A DNA stretch of 64,000 nt, taken from positions 678,501-742,500 of the forward strand of contig NZ_CP050313.1 of assembly GCF_011765625.1 (NCBI RefSeq), given 5' to 3'. Of this stretch, positions 39,321 through 46,198 are shown in pieces (position 1 is the stretch's first letter; every line of letters starts with the position of its first letter). The DNA comes from Shewanella aestuarii (GTDB lineage: Bacteria > Pseudomonadota > Gammaproteobacteria > Enterobacterales > Shewanellaceae). Position numbers and translations under genes: made by a program. Under the pieces are notes generated by a model. It saw only the letters and a program-made list of their open reading frames with translations, had not been told where the DNA came from and did no database searches.

Positions 39321-40130
39321 TTACTTTTTAGCTAATTGATCTTTCAGCTCGGCAATTTCGTTGAGCATTTCAGTTTGATTTTTTTCCATTTGTCGTTGAT
39401 TAGCTTCCATGCGAGTTAGCACTTGCTCTAACTCATTTTTAATCATTTCTTGTTGTGACTCTTTTCGTTCTTGCTCATCAGGTGCGACAAATACTGATGC
39501 CATGTAGCCTGAAATTACCCCAAAAAAGCTAACACCGCTGATAATCACAATGCCGCCGATCAAATGTCCAAGGGTGCTCACAGGATAAAAATCACCATAA
39601 CCAACAGTAGAAATGGTCACTAATGCCCACCAAATGGCTTGTTCGGCAGTATGGATGTTAGCCCCTTCAACGCCGGACTCAACTAACAGGATTAACACTG
39701 AGGCGTTAGCCAAAATTAAAACTGTAGCCAACAATAAGCTGGCCAGAGTCGTTTGTTTACGTTGTCTTAGTAGCGGCCAAATAATTGCACGGCTCATTCT
39801 TATTAATCGAATAACGCGAAGGATTTGAAACACCCTTGCGATACGTAATGCTTCAATAGCGGGGATACTGGCAATAAAATCAATCCAGTGATGGCGCAAG
39901 TAGTACTTTTTATCCCGTGCTTTCGTTAAGCCGATAAAAAAGCGCGTCATAAAGATCACACAAATTGTCGTATCTACATATAAGAGGACCCGATAAGTCT
40001 CTTTATCTAGCTTAGCGAAGGCTAAAATGAGTACAATGACCACCGAAAAAAACGATAAGATCATCATGACAAACTCAAACGGGTCAAGCATGGTTTTGGT
40101 TTTTGCTGACCAGCGTTTTGGGTTAAGCAT
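39321..40130 (-). CDS. Voltage-gated-type potassium channel
   Basis: Six-segment cation channel of 269 residues. Hydrophobic segments begin near residue 20; the S4-like voltage sensor RIARVFQILRVIRLIRMSR carries regularly spaced arginines; the pore has the K+ filter STVGYGDFYP. A cytoplasmic C-terminal coiled coil (about 215-269) contains repeats such as MEANQRQMEKNQTEM and could drive tetramerisation. It lies just downstream of the polyamine/PspA cluster on the same strand; a terminator separates them, so the link is proximity only. Published comparative work on YjfC-type clusters also reports channel genes nearby, from memory. Confidence 0.88.
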   Translation of the reverse strand: MLNPKRWSAKTKTMLDPFEFVMMILSFFSVVIVLILAFAKLDKETYRVLLYVDTTICVIFMTRFFIGLTKARDKKYYLRHHWIDFIASIPAIEALRIARVFQILRVIRLIRMSRAIIWPLLRQRKQTTLASLLLATVLILANASVLILLVESGVEGANIHTAEQAIWWALVTISTVGYGDFYPVSTLGHLIGGIVIISGVSFFGVISGYMASVFVAPDEQERKESQQEMIKNELEQVLTRMEANQRQMEKNQTEMLNEIAELKDQLAKK

Positions 40131-40181: not shown

Positions 40182-40213
40182 AAAACGCACTAGGACAAAG
40201 TCTAGTGCGTTTT
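40182..40213 (-). terminator. Terminator of the DUF2170-PspA-DUF2491-RHH operon
   Basis: Stem AAAACGCACTAG / CTAGTGCGTTTT; on the minus strand it is followed by a T-rich tract (TTATTATG). It starts 11 bases after the stop at 40224. Confidence 0.88.
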
Positions 40214-40223
40214 AACAGAAAGC

Positions 40224-40550
40224 TTATTTAGAATCGACAAAGTGAACTAAATCATCTAAAACGCGCTTTTTAATTTCAAGTTGCGCTTCGGGTGTAAGAC
40301 CATACTTTTCAGCCAAAATAACGTAGTCTTCACCGCTTAGTGATACTGTCAGCCTTGGCCTTTTAGGGCGTTTGGATACCGATAAACCAAGAATCGTTCT
40401 AATTTGGTCCGAAGGACTAACGCCCCTGTCTAATGCCGCTTTACGGATGGAATATTGGAACTTTTCATCTATGTCAAAAGCCACTTGAGTGGCTTTGGCG
40501 GCTTGTTGGTTCTTCAACCACTTATCAGGTAATGGCTTGCCTGTTGACAT
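40224..40550 (-). CDS. Small protein with two predicted ribbon-helix-helix units, candidate repressor
   Basis: Protein of 108 residues. Two successive segments each have the strand-helix-turn-helix layout of ribbon-helix-helix DNA-binding domains: ATQVAFDIDEKFQYSIRKAA (then GVSPSDQIRTILGL) and RPRLTVSLSGEDYVILAEKYG (then LTPEAQLEIKKRVLDDL). A very basic linker (SKRPKRPR) joins them. Shine-Dalgarno AAGGAGAG fixes the ATG. It is the last gene of the DUF2170 operon. I infer that it binds the 13-bp palindromes in front of this operon and of the upstream operon; no known regulator name can be assigned. Confidence 0.6.
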   Translation of the reverse strand: MSTGKPLPDKWLKNQQAAKATQVAFDIDEKFQYSIRKAALDRGVSPSDQIRTILGLSVSKRPKRPRLTVSLSGEDYVILAEKYGLTPEAQLEIKKRVLDDLVHFVDSK

Positions 40551-40568
40551 ATGGGCAGCTCTCCTTAA

Positions 40569-41222
40569 TTAGCTTGCAGGCCAATAATCTCGAATATCAC
40601 TTAATGGGCGATATAAGGTTAACATGACTTCTGTGTCACCAGATTCATAAACTTCAATGTCTAAAGCATGGGTTTCATGTGCGTTGACCAGAGAATAGCT
40701 TTCAAAGGCTTCACCACGTTGACCATTATCGTCCTGAGGGGGAGTTAAGTTTCGATAATCTTCACGATGAAAATAACCAAAACCAGCATATTCGACTTGA
40801 TGATAATCATCAGCTACCCATTGCCCCAGCTCTTCGCTAAGTTCTGGCGATAAAGCCTGCGGTGTGAGATTTGCTTGTCCGGGTTCTTCGAAAATGTCGG
40901 CAAACTGGTCTAAATCAAATAACTGTTCGACCACAGCACGGCTGATTTTGTAAGAAAAGCTGAGATAGGCTTCATCTTCGACTACGTAGGCCATAAAAAT
41001 TGACTTACCACTATGACCACGAAGCATAAATTCACATTGCTGCGAACGTTGATATTCGTAGGTATGGATAGCTTCCACTTTTAGCTGTTGCCCACGAAGT
41101 TGTGCGGGCAAAGCAAAGCTGTCATCAAGGGTGATCATGTCACCCTTGAGCAGCTTGTTTGGGTGGTCAAGCACACGCTTTGGGGCTTCTTTCTTGCCAA
41201 ATAGGCCACGTAGAAATCCCAT
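40569..41222 (-). CDS. yjfK: DUF2491 family protein (YjfK-like)
   Basis: Acidic protein of about 217 residues starting MGFLRGLFGKKEAPKRVLDH, with the pattern of the DUF2491/YjfK family that always accompanies a PspA-like gene. There is no signal peptide. Function unknown. The ATG at 41222 is preferred over an upstream TTG because AAAGG lies at a suitable distance. It follows the PspA-like gene directly. Confidence 0.8.
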   Translation of the reverse strand: MGFLRGLFGKKEAPKRVLDHPNKLLKGDMITLDDSFALPAQLRGQQLKVEAIHTYEYQRSQQCEFMLRGHSGKSIFMAYVVEDEAYLSFSYKISRAVVEQLFDLDQFADIFEEPGQANLTPQALSPELSEELGQWVADDYHQVEYAGFGYFHREDYRNLTPPQDDNGQRGEAFESYSLVNAHETHALDIEVYESGDTEVMLTLYRPLSDIRDYWPAS

Positions 41223-41228
41223 AGTCAA

Positions 41229-41918
41229 TTAACCTTTACGTGCTTTAATGCGTTCAAGGACCGCATTGGCGTTTGATTTTTGCTCACCAATCCCAGCTTC
41301 TGCTAGCTTAGCCTGTAGCGACTTATCGCTGTTTTCTTCTGCTAAGGCTTCAGACGCTTTCAAACGGTCATCAAACTGTTGTTGACGCGCTTTAATACGC
41401 TCAAGTGAGTCTTTAGCGTTAAGTAGCTTAGAGTTACTAGATGCAAATGAATCAGTAATCGTTGCGGTTGCTTTTTGTACGCTTTCGGTGGTTTTAACCA
41501 TGCTTAGCTGACGTTGGTAATCAGATAACTGGCGTTCAGTTTTCTTCACCAAATCTTTTAAGCGAACAGCGTGTGAGCTAAAGCTATCATTTGCCGTTTG
41601 TTGTTCGGCAAGTTCTTGATCTAATTGAGCGATTTTTTCTGCAACTTCAATAGCTAATGCTTCATTACCTTTGTCTAAGGCTTGAGTTGCATAGCCTTCA
41701 TGTTCAGCAATGCTGCGCTTTAAGCGGTCAACTTCACGGCTGGCTTGCATTTCTTTAGCCATTACATCTGTGAGTTCACGCTTAGCTTTAGTCAGGTGTT
41801 TTTCCGCATCACGAATTTCTTGTTCGAAAATGCGCGTTGAGTTGGCGTCAACAATGCTTTGGCCTACTTCATTTGCGCCACCACGAAATGCGGTTAGGAT
41901 TTTGTTTAAAATGCCCAT
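41229..41918 (-). CDS. yjfJ: PspA/IM30 family protein (YjfJ-like)
   Basis: Coiled-coil protein of 229 residues related to phage shock protein A, which forms membrane-protective assemblies. The N-terminal amphipathic helix (MGILNKILTAFRGGANEVG) is suited to membrane binding; helices run through residues ~25-200. Two similar short blocks, LERIKARQQ (near 180) and LERIKARKG (the C-terminus), are present. A strong AAGGAG precedes the ATG. There is no PspF or PspB/C here, so its stress signal must come from elsewhere. Confidence 0.9.
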   Translation of the reverse strand: MGILNKILTAFRGGANEVGQSIVDANSTRIFEQEIRDAEKHLTKAKRELTDVMAKEMQASREVDRLKRSIAEHEGYATQALDKGNEALAIEVAEKIAQLDQELAEQQTANDSFSSHAVRLKDLVKKTERQLSDYQRQLSMVKTTESVQKATATITDSFASSNSKLLNAKDSLERIKARQQQFDDRLKASEALAEENSDKSLQAKLAEAGIGEQKSNANAVLERIKARKG

Positions 41919-41928
41919 AGTTGACTCC

Positions 41929-42342
41929 TTAAATTAAAAACTCTGCGAGTTCGTCAATAACTTCCAAACAGTTGTCTGAAAGGACAGCTAATTCTTGTTC
42001 AATTTCTTCCATGCTAGAAGCCAGTGCCAGTGCACCATAAACTACGTATTTGTCATCAATTTTGGCAAATGATGACAATGGCATTGGAATGTTTAGCTCT
42101 AACATGGTTTCAAACATTTCAGCGCGGCGAGCTTGGTTTACTTCAGTTTCGCCCCACAAATAACTAATACACAAAATTTGATTGTCAGTGACAGAGACAA
42201 ACACTGGGATCTCTTCACGGCCGACTACGTTGACTTGTAAGACTTCAACGTCGCCATCAATGGGATAACAATCAAATTGAAAGCCGGTAAGGCTGTTGTC
42301 ACAAAGACCATTTAAATGGTTAGCAATAGTGTGGATATTCAT
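41929..42342 (-). CDS. yjfI: DUF2170 family protein (YjfI-like)
   Basis: Protein of about 137 residues of the DUF2170 family, always linked to YjfJ-type PspA genes. Typical parts are FQFDCYPIDGDVEVLQVNV, SYLWGETEVNQARRAEMFE and MPLSSFAKIDDKYVVYGALA. The start is ATG 42342 with AAGGAC in front; a longer reading frame from 42420 would run through the promoter and operators. First gene of a four-gene operon (DUF2170, PspA, DUF2491, RHH). Function unknown; a role in membrane stress is inferred. Confidence 0.85.
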   Translation of the reverse strand: MNIHTIANHLNGLCDNSLTGFQFDCYPIDGDVEVLQVNVVGREEIPVFVSVTDNQILCISYLWGETEVNQARRAEMFETMLELNIPMPLSSFAKIDDKYVVYGALALASSMEEIEQELAVLSDNCLEVIDELAEFLI

Positions 42343-42355
42343 ATTTGTCCTTATT

Positions 42356-42368
42356 GACATATTATGTC
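42356..42368. promoter_or_regulatory. Palindromic operator O2 of the DUF2170 operon
   Basis: GACATATTATGTC, a perfect 13-bp palindrome around one base. It ends 14 bases before the DUF2170 ATG, near the expected transcription start. Its twin O1 lies 34 bases away, centre to centre. Confidence 0.8.
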
Positions 42369-42376
42369 TGCGAATA

Positions 42377-42404
42377 AAGATAGCACCTAGACATAATATG
42401 TCAA
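42377..42404 (-). promoter_or_regulatory. Promoter of the DUF2170 operon with overlapping operator O1
   Basis: Minus strand: -35 TTGACA (42404-42399, perfect consensus), 16 bases, then TATCTT (42382-42377) as a possible -10. The palindrome GACATAATATGTC (plus strand, 42390-42402) covers the -35 box. Operator over -35 plus O2 downstream is the layout of a repressed promoter. Confidence 0.7.
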
Positions 42405-42419
42405 GCGCTATCTGGTCCA

Positions 42420-44195
42420 TTAAAAAAGATTCATCACTTCATTGTCTGACCAAGCGGCTAAATGATAGTGATATAACTGCAGTGAACCTATGGTGTTCAC
42501 ATTAATATTTTGTTTATCATCATAAAAATTTGCCGGAAATTCAAAGGCGCCTTTGATTAAGCCCAGTGTTAGCCAATCATCTTGTATTGGCATCTTGTCG
42601 AGCTTTGTTAATCGTTGAGCAGGGCTTGCGCCATGTTTACTGGCAATACTCCAGCCCCATTCGCCAAAGCTTGGTACGTTATGGTGATATTGATCGACAT
42701 TAAAACCTGCAGCTTGCAAGGTTTTTCCGATCGAAATAAACGCCTTTGGTGCATGATATGGAGAGGTTGATTGTACCGTGACAACGCCATCGGCGCTGAG
42801 GAGTTCATTGAGTTTTCGATAAAATAAATCAGAATAAAGCTTATTTAAATCCGGATGGCTTGGGTCAGGCAAATCAACAATGATGGCATCAAAATGTTGA
42901 CCTGACTGGATCAGTTTGTCGACACCATTAAAAGCATCATCATGGATTAACGTCAGCCTAGGGTCATTCAAACTATTGTCATTAAGCGCTAACAAGACTT
43001 GGCTTAAAAAGGCAGGCATATCATCAGGAGGCGCTTTGAAAAGGCTAACCAAGTCTTTGTCTAAATCCATTAATGTGACGCTTTTAGGCTGCCATGCAAG
43101 CACCTGTTTTAAGCCTAGGCCATCTCCACCACCAATAATTAATACCTTATCGTGTCGGGCGCTGGCAGCTAAGGTTGGGTGAACTAAAAAGCTATGATAG
43201 ATATGCTCGTCACTACTTGAGAACTGCAAGCGGCCGTTAATATACAAATTGTAAACGGGGGCTAAACCATTACCCCGTAAACGCTCAGTAAATGTGAGTT
43301 GCTGAAAACGAGTGGCTTTGGCATAAACCACCTTATCTTTGTATAGCAGATTATTAAAATGTTGTTCCCACTGTGGCCCTTTGGAGGCCAGTACGCCAAT
43401 ACAAACACTGGCAACGATATGACCCAATAGCAATAATTTTGCATGGTTAATCTTGTGCCAAAAACGCACAATAAAGATAAATCCTGCAATTAAATTCACA
43501 CTGGCGGTGAGTGCCGCGGCCAGTTGAATATCAATGGCCAGCATAAAGCCAACCCAAATAGCGGCACCTACCCCTGCGCCAATATAATCTGCGCCGTAAA
43601 TTGTACCAGCATTATGAAGTAAATGAGCTTCTGAAAGAGACTGGCGGACTCTGGCGATCAGTGGAATTTCCATGCCGATCATTAAGCCAAGTAACACTCC
43701 CCAAGCATAAGGTAGGTATTCGCTGAGTGCTTGCAGCGTGGCAATAAAGCCACCATTTGGTAAGGTATCAGCAGGTAGGCCCAAGTTATTGGCAATAGCC
43801 AGTGGTAATTGTTGGCCAAAACCAATGACAGCAGCGGTAATGATAATGGCAAATGAGCCGCATAAGGCTACGGTCAGCTCTAATATGGCAAAGCCGGTAA
43901 AGGCGCATTTTATTTTACGGGCGGCGAATGCCCCAACTCCCATAGAAACAATCATTAAGCCAATCATGGTGTAAATGGCGGCTTCTAAGGCGCCTAAAAT
44001 ACGCCCAGCGTAATGAGAGAGTAAGTACTCATATATCAGACCGCAGCCAGCTAGTAGCGCCATAATGCCAAGTAACAAGGCATCATCAAACCAAGCGAGC
44101 CTTTTTTGTGCAGGATGAGAGGAGGCTTCAGTACTTTGCTTGAAGCCCCCTTTTACAGGCTGAGTTGGATCAGCTTCAAGCAAAGTGTCAGACAT
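42420..44195 (-). CDS. Membrane-anchored spermidine synthase-like aminopropyltransferase
   Basis: Protein of 591 residues. The N-terminal half (about 25-255) has seven or so hydrophobic membrane segments; the C-terminal half is a polyamine synthase domain with VLIIGGGDGLGLKQVLAW (SAM-type nucleotide site), LMDLDKD and the catalytic-region VDLPDPSHPDLNKLYS. Substrates would be decarboxylated S-adenosylmethionine and a diamine, but the replacement of the usual DSTDP by DLPDP and the membrane part leave the product open. It is the last gene of the lipoprotein-DUF350 operon; its stop lies next to the DUF2170 promoter. Confidence 0.85.
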   Translation of the reverse strand: MSDTLLEADPTQPVKGGFKQSTEASSHPAQKRLAWFDDALLLGIMALLAGCGLIYEYLLSHYAGRILGALEAAIYTMIGLMIVSMGVGAFAARKIKCAFTGFAILELTVALCGSFAIIITAAVIGFGQQLPLAIANNLGLPADTLPNGGFIATLQALSEYLPYAWGVLLGLMIGMEIPLIARVRQSLSEAHLLHNAGTIYGADYIGAGVGAAIWVGFMLAIDIQLAAALTASVNLIAGFIFIVRFWHKINHAKLLLLGHIVASVCIGVLASKGPQWEQHFNNLLYKDKVVYAKATRFQQLTFTERLRGNGLAPVYNLYINGRLQFSSSDEHIYHSFLVHPTLAASARHDKVLIIGGGDGLGLKQVLAWQPKSVTLMDLDKDLVSLFKAPPDDMPAFLSQVLLALNDNSLNDPRLTLIHDDAFNGVDKLIQSGQHFDAIIVDLPDPSHPDLNKLYSDLFYRKLNELLSADGVVTVQSTSPYHAPKAFISIGKTLQAAGFNVDQYHHNVPSFGEWGWSIASKHGASPAQRLTKLDKMPIQDDWLTLGLIKGAFEFPANFYDDKQNINVNTIGSLQLYHYHLAAWSDNEVMNLF

Positions 44196-44199
44196 AAGG

Positions 44200-45099
44200 T
44201 TACGCCATTAACGCCGTTAAAATAAGGGCGACGGCAATGCTTATGGCCATTTCAACCGCAGCAATACCAATGTTATGTTGCAGTTCAACTTCTTGAGCTA
44301 AGTTAATGCCTGCTAGTACTAGCTTTTTAACGATGGCAATCACTATGGTCATTAGGACTAACATGATAATCGAGAATACTAACCAGCCAATAATATTGCT
44401 GACATAAGCGGTTGGAATGTAGTGAATAAAGTGGCTTGCGGCATTAAAGCTTAATGCCATGGCAATCATATAACCACTGTGGCGCAGGGCTAATGCTGTT
44501 TGCCCTTGTTTTAAGGCTTCTTGCATTGAGGCATTTTGATTACGCTTGGCGTAGCGGTTTTCACGAAAACGAGTTAACAGTACTAAAATTAACTGCGAGA
44601 CAATAAAGGCACTGAAAATAGCAATAAAGGTATCAATAGTTATATCTTCAGCCCACATGAGTACGGCGCGAATAATAATTGCAGTGGCAATCGCAGCAGC
44701 GGCATCAACTACGGCAACCGAAATATTGCCCTTTAAAATTTCATCATTTTTAGCAAATTCATTTAAAGCCACTTTGTCATGTAAAAAGCGTCCAAGCTTA
44801 ATGAGCACTAAGCCAAAAATACCATATGCACTCATGCCAATCGCTTCGGTAACATAAGAGCTGGCAGCTTCACCTGTGATAGCGCCTGTGAGCACTATAC
44901 CTAACGCGGCTACGGCACCTGCGGTACTTATCCCAAAGGCAAAGTTATCACGTTCAGCGAGCTCTTTACTGCTGTTGACATTGACGGTCCATCCTTGCAG
45001 ATAACGCATTAAGGCTAGTAGGACAATTGCGATAGCCAAGTCAATGGCAAGAATAATTAAAAGTGGCTGGGTAATGCCATATTGTTCAAGAAATGTCAT
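44200..45099 (-). CDS. yjfL: DUF350 family membrane protein (YjfL-like)
   Basis: Integral membrane protein of 299 residues with about eight hydrophobic segments, arranged as two DUF350-like halves (LEQYGITQPLLIILAIDLAI... and the second starting near residue 160). YjfL in E. coli has one such unit, so this is a duplicated form. It is placed between the lipoprotein gene and the aminopropyltransferase gene; stop and next start are 4 bases apart. Function unknown; transport or ion-related roles have been suggested for the family, and the linkage with polyamine genes is notable. Confidence 0.83.
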   Translation of the reverse strand: MTFLEQYGITQPLLIILAIDLAIAIVLLALMRYLQGWTVNVNSSKELAERDNFAFGISTAGAVAALGIVLTGAITGEAASSYVTEAIGMSAYGIFGLVLIKLGRFLHDKVALNEFAKNDEILKGNISVAVVDAAAAIATAIIIRAVLMWAEDITIDTFIAIFSAFIVSQLILVLLTRFRENRYAKRNQNASMQEALKQGQTALALRHSGYMIAMALSFNAASHFIHYIPTAYVSNIIGWLVFSIIMLVLMTIVIAIVKKLVLAGINLAQEVELQHNIGIAAVEMAISIAVALILTALMA

Positions 45100-45115
45100 G
45101 GTTAATCCTACCTAT

Positions 45116-46084
45116 TTACTTGCCGCGACTAATACCGCGAGTGGTGCGGCTAGTTGAATTACGGAAACTGCTAGTTTTAGAGTAATTTGAGCGAAATTTG
45201 CTACTGCTGGCCGTACGCGTTGTGGTACTTGCCTTGGGCGCGCTGGTACTTTGGCGCGATAGACTGGTTGAGCCTGTGCGGGTTTTGGCATACGGGCTGT
45301 TGAATCGTTTGCCTTGTGAGTCAAAACGCTTTTTAGTTTGAGCAAAGGTTTTCTCTTGCGCCGTAGCTTGTTTGGGTGATGTATAACGATAGCGGCCAAC
45401 GTCGTTGTAATAGCTGTAACCACGGCGATTAGACCAGTTATCGTAGGCTATAGGGCGATTAAAGATGTTCGAGAACATCGAATACATGCCATACCACGCC
45501 CAAAAAGACATACCATTTGAGCCAGTTTGCCAACTCCCATAATTAGGATTGCCTACCAGTTGACTACCAGGGCCAAAATCATCTTCACTATTTGCCAGTG
45601 CAGCCGCCTCGCGGCTGATAGCATTAACTCGGGCTAATTTGCCCTGAGACATATCGGCAATGACATTCAATGGATCTGACAACATATCATTAAATAATGC
45701 GCTATCAGCCGCTTGATACACATTTTCTGCTTCAGCAAGTTGTTGGTCTAAATCCATATAGTTGGCAGCGTTTGATAGCTCAGCATTGCGACGCTTAAGC
45801 GACAAAAACATCGGTCCACTTGCCGTCGCATCTAATGCTAATTCATTTAATAATGGGGCTAAATCGCTGCGCTGTTGGCTTAAAATTTGGCTGTATTGTT
45901 TCAGCAATGTCGCATTACGTAACTGACCATTTTCGAGCCCGTTTTGAAGCTGATTGAGTCGCTGTTCTGTCAATTGTTGATATTTTGCGATTTGCTCAGG
46001 TCGATCATCACCACAACCGCTTAGACTCAATCCGATTAATAAGGTGAAAATTAACGTGAATACACGGGGGAACTTGCCAGCCAT
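45116..46084 (-). CDS. Lipoprotein of the polyamine/PspA cluster
   Basis: Predicted outer-membrane lipoprotein of about 322 residues: basic start, hydrophobic stretch and lipobox LSLSGC. The mature region is helical (about 30-170), followed by an aromatic-rich part (GMSFWAWYGMYSMFSNIF) and a tail rich in Ser, Thr and Arg ending SRTTRGISRGK. It is not recognisably DUF1190, but its composition resembles the lipoprotein (YjfM) found in the E. coli yjf cluster. ATG 46084 is preferred, with GGAG upstream; the frame is open from 46147. First gene of its operon, under the GACATATTATGTC operator. Confidence 0.68.
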   Translation of the reverse strand: MAGKFPRVFTLIFTLLIGLSLSGCGDDRPEQIAKYQQLTEQRLNQLQNGLENGQLRNATLLKQYSQILSQQRSDLAPLLNELALDATASGPMFLSLKRRNAELSNAANYMDLDQQLAEAENVYQAADSALFNDMLSDPLNVIADMSQGKLARVNAISREAAALANSEDDFGPGSQLVGNPNYGSWQTGSNGMSFWAWYGMYSMFSNIFNRPIAYDNWSNRRGYSYYNDVGRYRYTSPKQATAQEKTFAQTKKRFDSQGKRFNSPYAKTRTGSTSLSRQSTSAPKASTTTRTASSSKFRSNYSKTSSFRNSTSRTTRGISRGK

Positions 46085-46167
46085 GTTTTCTCCAAGTGTT
46101 ATAAAATTCATGTGCGTTCGTCGCAGGTTATAGTAATCTGGAAACAATTTTATAGATATCTGCGATC

Positions 46168-46198
46168 AATATATCAGTAGCAAGACATATTATGTCAA
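46168..46198 (-). promoter_or_regulatory. Promoter and operator of the lipoprotein-DUF350-aminopropyltransferase operon
   Basis: Minus strand: -35 TTGACA (46198-46193), then TATATT (46173-46168) 19 bases on, or GATATA 17 bases on. The 13-bp palindrome GACATATTATGTC (46184-46196) overlaps the -35 box exactly as at the DUF2170 promoter; the shared stretch is CTTGACATAWTATGTCT. Confidence 0.7.

Follow-up and report, generated by a model that had tools for sequence, protein, structure and literature searches.

Which factor controls the PspA-containing gene cluster of Shewanella aestuarii, and how far does its control reach along the chromosome? The question is raised by a stretch of 64,000 nucleotides (contig NZ_CP050313.1, positions 678,501 to 742,500; hereafter the window), in which two neighboring operons are read from the minus strand in the order lipoprotein, DUF350 protein and membrane-fused aminopropyltransferase, then DUF2170 protein, PspA, a DUF4178-like protein and a small protein of 108 amino acids (aa). 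An earlier note on this DNA had proposed that the 108-aa protein, viewed as two ribbon-helix-helix (RHH) units, represses both operons through a shared 13-base-pair (bp) palindrome. Our analysis assigns a probability of roughly four in five to the reading that this protein is the cognate transcription factor of the palindrome, GACATAWTATGTC, being most likely an autoregulated RHH repressor of a membrane-stress regulon.

Exact copies of GACATAWTATGTC were confirmed at 42356-42368, 42390-42402 and 46184-46196, with no other copy in the window, compared with none in 300 dinucleotide shuffles of the same DNA (0/300). The window contains 27 perfect 13-bp palindromes, and the arm of GACATAWTATGTC was the only one repeated among them. 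With up to three mismatches allowed, the count was at chance level (20 sites versus a chance mean of 17.2), and therefore only exact sites are meaningful. Read towards the genes, the sites at 42390 and 46184 both give CTTGACATAWTATGTCT, in which TTGACA overlaps the palindrome, as the earlier note had observed; the site at 42356 lies in the DUF2170 leader, 13 bp upstream of the start at 42342. These candidate operators are designated O1 (42390), O2 (42356) and O3 (46184).

The evidence that carries the proposed pairing is the tight co-occurrence of the site with the gene encoding the 108-aa protein (RHH gene), which was followed in 146 Shewanellaceae genomes (family sample) and in 394 genomes from 27 families (order sample); genomes, loci and families are cited below by our handles (G, L and f). 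In the family sample, the exact site was found in 129/146 genomes, at 3-10 copies each, with 3 sites in all in the reversed control, and the RHH gene was likewise found in 129/146, the two lists being identical. The 17 genomes without gene and site, which include one of the window's own genus (G108), keep HtpX (17/17); the exact site occurs nowhere in them, and the htpX promoters of five were viewed. In the order sample, the RHH gene was present in 116/394 genomes and DUF2170 in 163/394, and all RHH-bearing genomes have DUF2170 (116/116). These 116 genomes hold 398 sites (92/116 with at least one), compared with 11 sites in the 47 genomes with DUF2170 and no RHH gene, two fragmented assemblies contributing six of the 11, and 18 in the 231 genomes lacking both; the reversed control gave 8 sites in total over the 394 genomes, and outside the 11 gene-bearing families no genome had more than two sites. 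Since the site counts are 398 in the genomes with the RHH gene and 11 in those with DUF2170 alone, the site tracks the RHH gene and not DUF2170. The Fisher value for this table, about 1e-44, overstates independence, the genomes being related. The putative action of the 108-aa protein on both operons and on its own gene through the palindrome is strongly supported by this co-occurrence (129/146 genomes; 398 versus 11 sites), while the confinement to two operons did not survive, as described below.

Regarding the protein itself, the predicted structure of the monomer supported the first of the two proposed RHH units, located at about residues 19-57 (beta-strand, helix A and helix B), which aligns with Arc and CopG. 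The C-terminal half, in contrast, is a helical unit whose fold comparison was tied with unrelated helical folds, and hhalign of the two halves against each other gave a probability of 1.1%, out of register. Among 52 aligned members, residues A20, Q22 and A24 of the predicted recognition strand are invariant, and W11, in an N-terminal arm ahead of the RHH core, is nearly so. The best E value was 0.95 in a sequence-profile search of the PDB with the 108-aa protein and 0.026 in a PHROGs search, and Foldseek with the whole predicted model returned nothing at E <= 0.001. In one genome (G192), the RHH gene (C1:4263703-4264014) carries one in-frame TAG while the genome keeps two sites, a sign of recent loss or of an error in sequencing.

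Several observations weigh against this reading. Among the 52 members scanned, matches to RHH-type Pfam families reached a best E of 0.04, the weak hits being NikA-like in 3/52, FitA-like in 2/52 (E 0.077) and RHH_1 in 1/52 (E 0.13), and the commonest weak match was Phage_RB18_ORF43 (19/52 members, best E 0.00083). The 17 family genomes without gene and site also lack DUF2170 (17/17); therefore, gene and operon are inseparable within the family, and only the order-wide table separates them. Moreover, genomes are not independent, and the fairer unit of evidence is the family, of which 11/27 bear the gene. Exact sites are absent, the RHH gene being kept, from 24/116 genomes, a pattern that the earlier note had regarded as contrary to its proposal; 22 of these belong to family f11, the others being G377 and G435. 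In f11, the htpX promoters have one-mismatch sites only (5/5 main copies viewed), and a second htpX copy (L226) has no site. Conversely, 23 genomes without the RHH gene have at least one site, and the ten inspected were not all explained: the sites of G224 and G497 (two each) and of G479 and G500 (one each) are outside open reading frames (ORFs) or unclear, with no known target. Finally, in G167 the DUF2170 operon lies on a different contig from the RHH and DUF4178-like genes, and the DUF2170 promoter is without any operator.

Variant operators were found in the families that include the RHH-bearing genomes lacking the exact site. A form with a shifted spacer, GACATTWAATGTC, occurs in 24/24 of the f11 genomes scanned; in the ten f11 DUF2170 promoters viewed, TTGACATATAATGNC covers the -35 box and GACATTWAATGTC forms the operator downstream of it, and the f11 RHH protein is divergent (53-57% identity). 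In two f7 promoters (L112 and L127, the latter of G435) the operator pair reads GACATTTTATGTC, and three f25 promoters (L123-L125, with L124 of G377) have a single GACTTATTATGTC at the RHH-linked DUF2170. Among the variants, the half-sites GACAT/ATGTC are mostly constant and the three middle bases vary; from this, together with the invariant A20, Q22 and A24, we infer that the protein would make its contacts in the half-sites. As for genomes with sites and no RHH gene, G250 (4 sites) has its paired operators on a 4394-bp contig that stops inside the DUF4178-like gene, short of the position at which relatives carry the RHH gene. The sites of G242, G423, G456 and G477 are inside ORFs of at least 120 aa (4/4), that of G335 is within a longer hairpin-like palindrome (L167), and G419, an f11 genome with 2 sites, is an assembly in 500 contigs. 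In G167, five sites are present, namely before NhaA, before a second PspA (two, 36 bp apart), before HtpX and between divergent ORFs, and we count the unlinking of gene and operon in this genome as a useful natural experiment in favor of the cognate pairing.

Co-occurrence by itself cannot name the binder, and the palindrome could be the operator of a factor encoded elsewhere, with the RHH gene as a passenger of the same lineages. We consider this unlikely, other factors of like distribution not having been sought, given that no family genome has one of site and gene without the other (146/146), and that six f7 loci (L109, L110, L111, L126, L128 and L135) hold, of eight genes sought, only DUF2170, PspA and RHH, among which the RHH protein alone is predicted to bind DNA. 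The variant operator of f11, which accompanies the divergent RHH protein, argues in the same direction.

The placement of the sites bears on the sign of the proposed regulation. In the 80 named loci, which are from Shewanella and Parashewanella and represent the best 80 of 336 found, two exact operators lie upstream of DUF2170 (80/80), the second ending 12-14 bp before the start; the pair is spaced by 34 bp in 68/80 and by 33-38 bp across all 80. The expectation that the palindrome would recur at DUF2170 promoters thus held in every named locus, although not as an exact site in the 24/116 genomes described above. TTGACA was present in 80/80 loci and TATCTT, 16 bp further on, in 69/80; this core, TTGACA-16-TATCTT, is of the sigma-70 type, and with O1 over the -35 box and O2 just past the -10 box, the operators flank the latter. 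Other fetched loci have exact pairs 30-39 bp apart (L108, L119 and L129 having a single exact site there), and therefore strict helical phasing is not kept. At htpX (12 promoters viewed), the TATTAT of the site itself is the likely -10 box, preceded by CTTGAAA or a less exact match. These positions would fit repression through blocking of the polymerase. Alternatively, the protein may be an activator or a dual regulator, helping at the -35 sites and acting otherwise at O2; single sites are often found at the -35 box, where some activators bind. Nevertheless, the -35 box of the DUF2170 promoter is the consensus TTGACA in 80/80 loci, and both O2, just downstream of the -10 box, and the htpX site, over the likely -10 box, occupy polymerase-blocking positions, making activation improbable.

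The candidate regulon extends beyond the window. The S. aestuarii genome contains 8 exact sites, against 0 in the reversed control, all of them upstream of genes and within about 100 bp. Five are at unlinked genes, 24-67 bp upstream of ORFs encoding a bPH_5 membrane protein, HtpX, AIM24, a membrane protein of 117 aa, and NfeD with two SPFH-type ORFs behind it; identities were assigned by Pfam, except for the second SPFH ORF, which was named from its resemblance. Most of these families have known or likely inner-membrane functions. Allowing up to two mismatches gave no excess in this genome (121 sites versus 130 in the control). Among six one-mismatch sites one stood out, GACATAAGATGTC at L014:1501-1513 (C1:223341-223353 of the same genome), which precedes an ORF judged by eye to be RpoH-like; it would connect heat shock with the regulon, although sites with one mismatch occur at about the chance level.

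Genes preceded by exact sites in other families encode NhaA (by Pfam in L028, L143 and L345; by eye in L032, L144, L147, L150 and L151), further PspA copies (L152, L346 and L350), NfeD (several loci), YqiJ (L042), proteins weakly SPFH-like at 20-22% identity (L051, L141 and L148), HtpX (families f1, f6, f12, f23 and f25), YidC-like (L178), Tim44-like (L171) and Yip1 (L179) proteins, and others, among them an M16 peptidase (L157); some sites have no recognizable target (e.g., L140, L161, L168 and L169). A pattern combining the site with an htpX-like start was found in 34/394 order genomes, all 34 carrying the RHH gene; HtpX was seen behind the site in some of them (e.g., L007, L154, L159, L170, L172-L174 and L330), and in one, G150, NfeD/SPFH genes and not htpX are downstream. 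In f6, the site precedes a short ORF (94-113 aa; L140, L142, L145, L146 and L149) whose start resembles a signal peptide, possibly a small secreted member of the regulon; the ORF of L145, the only one of this set scanned, had no Pfam match.

This reach bears directly on the notion of a closed, polyamine-related module of two operons. The operon encoding the lipoprotein and the aminopropyltransferase does have a site in S. aestuarii and several other genomes, and an exact site lies ahead of the lipoprotein gene in L037, L049, L052, L105, L106 and L129 as well. However, 5/8 of the sites in the S. aestuarii genome are at unlinked genes, and many RHH-bearing loci are without an aminopropyltransferase in the fetched stretch (e.g., L103, L109, L110 and L113-L118), with the DUF2170 operators staying or shifting in such loci. 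A closed module is therefore very improbable; the two-operon limit set by the earlier note has to be dropped, and a specific polyamine signal was not supported. As for chance palindromes or a structural motif such as a terminator or repeat, inverted repeats are common and the G335 site belongs to a longer hairpin-like one, but the counts of 8 versus 0 in the reversed control and 0/300 in shuffles, the conserved promoter position, and the chance-like location inside ORFs of the sites of the four RHH-lacking genomes G242, G423, G456 and G477 (4/4) leave this explanation a negligible probability.

The features of the locus are listed in Table 1. For the third gene of the DUF2170 operon, assigned to DUF2491 in the earlier note, Pfam gave no DUF2491 match and this label was rejected in favor of the weak match to DUF4178, a label that also appears for a protein of this operon in passages of Ravi et al. 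(PMC11237479). The lipoprotein gave nothing above the cut-off in a Pfam scan. The start of DUF2170 is the ATG of MNIHTIA..., and the same start lies 12-14 bp past O2 in 80/80 named loci. The longest DUF2170 ORF starts at 42420 and would read through both operators (42343-42420); it is probably not the real gene, as relatives share the start at 42342, and automatic annotation may misplace the DUF2170 start here. Genomes of f25 (e.g., G169, G226 and G241) have two DUF2170 matches each, which suggests a second cluster. Past the stem-loop, the RHH gene is followed by an ion-channel gene (39321-40130, Ion_trans), which remains its neighbor in L119, L129, L133 and L134; an exact search of the window found no site upstream of this gene.

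Table 1. Coordinates of genes, promoter elements and candidate operators of the locus (positions in the window).
Feature	Position	Strand	Remarks
Terminator-like stem-loop closing operon 1	40182..40213	-	Inverted repeat AAAACGCACTAG / CTAGTGCGTTTT, read directly
108-aa regulator (predicted)	40224..40550	-	Final gene of operon 1, before stem-loop
DUF4178-like protein	40569..41228	-	Pfam DUF4178 E 0.0056, under cut-off
PspA/IM30 family protein	41229..41918	-	PF04012 E 4.8e-43
DUF2170 (YjfI/BacA-like) protein	41929..42342	-	PF09938 E 6.4e-37 on 41929-42363
Operator O2 (candidate)	42356..42368	.	Leader, right after -10 box
-10 hexamer TATCTT, DUF2170 promoter	42377..42382	-	Same place in 69/80 loci
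Operator O1 (candidate)	42390..42402	.	Overlaps -35 box
-35 hexamer TTGACA	42399..42404	-	GACA in common with O1; 80/80 loci
Membrane-fused spermidine-synthase-like aminopropyltransferase	42420..44195	-	PF01564 E 5.7e-32; NF002956 over cut-off
DUF350 (YjfL-like) membrane protein	44200..45099	-	PF03994 E 5.4e-38
Lipoprotein, first gene of operon 2	45116..46084	-	Lipobox LSGC in translation
Operator O3 (candidate)	46184..46196	.	Over TTGACA, promoter of lipoprotein-DUF350-aminopropyltransferase operon

From these positions, we infer a mechanism in which the 108-aa protein would bind O1 and O2 and repress its own DUF2170-PspA-DUF4178-like operon, so that the supply of repressor would be tied to the operon that it represses. 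The lipoprotein-DUF350-aminopropyltransferase operon would be repressed through O3, and the unlinked genes for NfeD-SPFH, HtpX, AIM24, bPH_5 and the 117-aa membrane protein would be repressed in trans. Membrane stress would then lift repression of the whole set, PspA and its helpers rising together. The likeliest route of release would be removal of the repressor by the DUF2170 chaperone, by PspA or by both, perhaps by gripping its LPxxW arm.

A more specific and tentative version, which we regard as possible rather than probable, is that membrane damage is signaled to DNA by a partner switch of three components, namely PspA, the DUF2170 chaperone and the RHH repressor. Departure of PspA to the damaged membrane would leave the chaperone to hold the N-terminal LPxxW arm of the repressor, and the regulon, including PspA, SPFH-NfeD, HtpX, NhaA, AIM24 and YidC-like proteins, would be freed. 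This switch is proposed because the RHH gene occurs without DUF2170 in 0/116 genomes, because, among the genes sought, the six f7 loci mentioned above yielded only DUF2170, PspA and RHH, because W11, which lies outside the RHH core, hardly varies, and because BacA, a relative of DUF2170 from the bac cluster of Pseudomonas aeruginosa, is described as CesT/Tir-like in passages of PMC10948618.

Compared with known repressors of the Arc, CopG and MetJ type, the 108-aa protein shares with Arc and CopG the aligned N-terminal beta-helix-helix unit, but it also has an additional arm at the N-terminus and a helical unit at the C-terminus, and its candidate targets form a membrane-maintenance regulon. 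The half-sites 8 bp apart resemble the adjacent boxes of MetJ. In Escherichia coli, as is proposed here, PspA genes are under a dedicated regulator of the phage shock protein (PSP) locus; that regulator, PspF, is a sigma-54 activator which PspA inhibits, in contrast to the sigma-70-type promoter with overlapping candidate operators described here. A sigma-54 activator was not among the 8 locus genes scanned, PspF not having been sought elsewhere in the genome. PspA (PF04012) shares its operon with the candidate regulator and the operators, and would be controlled through these sites.

In Bacillus subtilis, pspA-ydjGHI, floA and floT are jointly under sigma-W according to passages of PMC8581546; there, as is proposed here, one regulator joins PspA with SPFH/flotillin genes in membrane stress, and the candidate regulon resembles that of sigma-W in its content. 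Sigma-W is an extracytoplasmic function sigma factor, whereas here a small RHH protein is paired with a palindromic operator on sigma-70-type promoters; the co-occurring gene is of the RHH type, and control of the sigma-W kind was not found. DUF2170 is likewise accompanied by a PspA-like gene in E. coli yjfIJKL, described in part of PMC12492005 as raised in heat-adapted strains, and in the P. aeruginosa bac cluster (PMC10948618). The same operon as that studied here, with PspA, a CesT/Tir-like chaperone and an aminopropyltransferase, and with an RHH transcription factor sometimes as the last gene, is described by Ravi et al. (2024; PMC11237479), whose passages on the operon give no operator, targets or mode of action; relative to them, the present analysis contributes the operator of 13 bp and a candidate regulon that spans the genome.

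Neither the operator nor the regulon was found to be reported in open-licence papers, subscription papers, supplements and RegPrecise being outside the search. The same literature yielded nothing combining RHH with phage shock protein, repressor and operator, and the open-licence papers searched gave no description of the control of the PspA/DUF2170 ("yjf") system. PMC5343134 yielded only passages on MetJ, and PMC9239133 only one passage, on a zinc ribbon.

Taken together, our results propose a regulator for the PspA/DUF2170 membrane-stress system, along with its operator and its targets. The target list joins DUF2170, DUF350, DUF4178-like, AIM24, bPH_5 and NfeD-SPFH proteins with PspA, HtpX and NhaA, and suggests that the poorly understood members act with the latter three in one inner-membrane repair program. 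Very probably, an unannotated small protein, predicted to bind DNA, switches off inner-membrane maintenance genes scattered over the chromosome. If the partner switch is true, it would add to PspF and sigma-W another way in which PSP systems are controlled; and if the cognate pairing of protein and palindrome is true, the PspA-linked membrane-stress system would gain its missing regulator.

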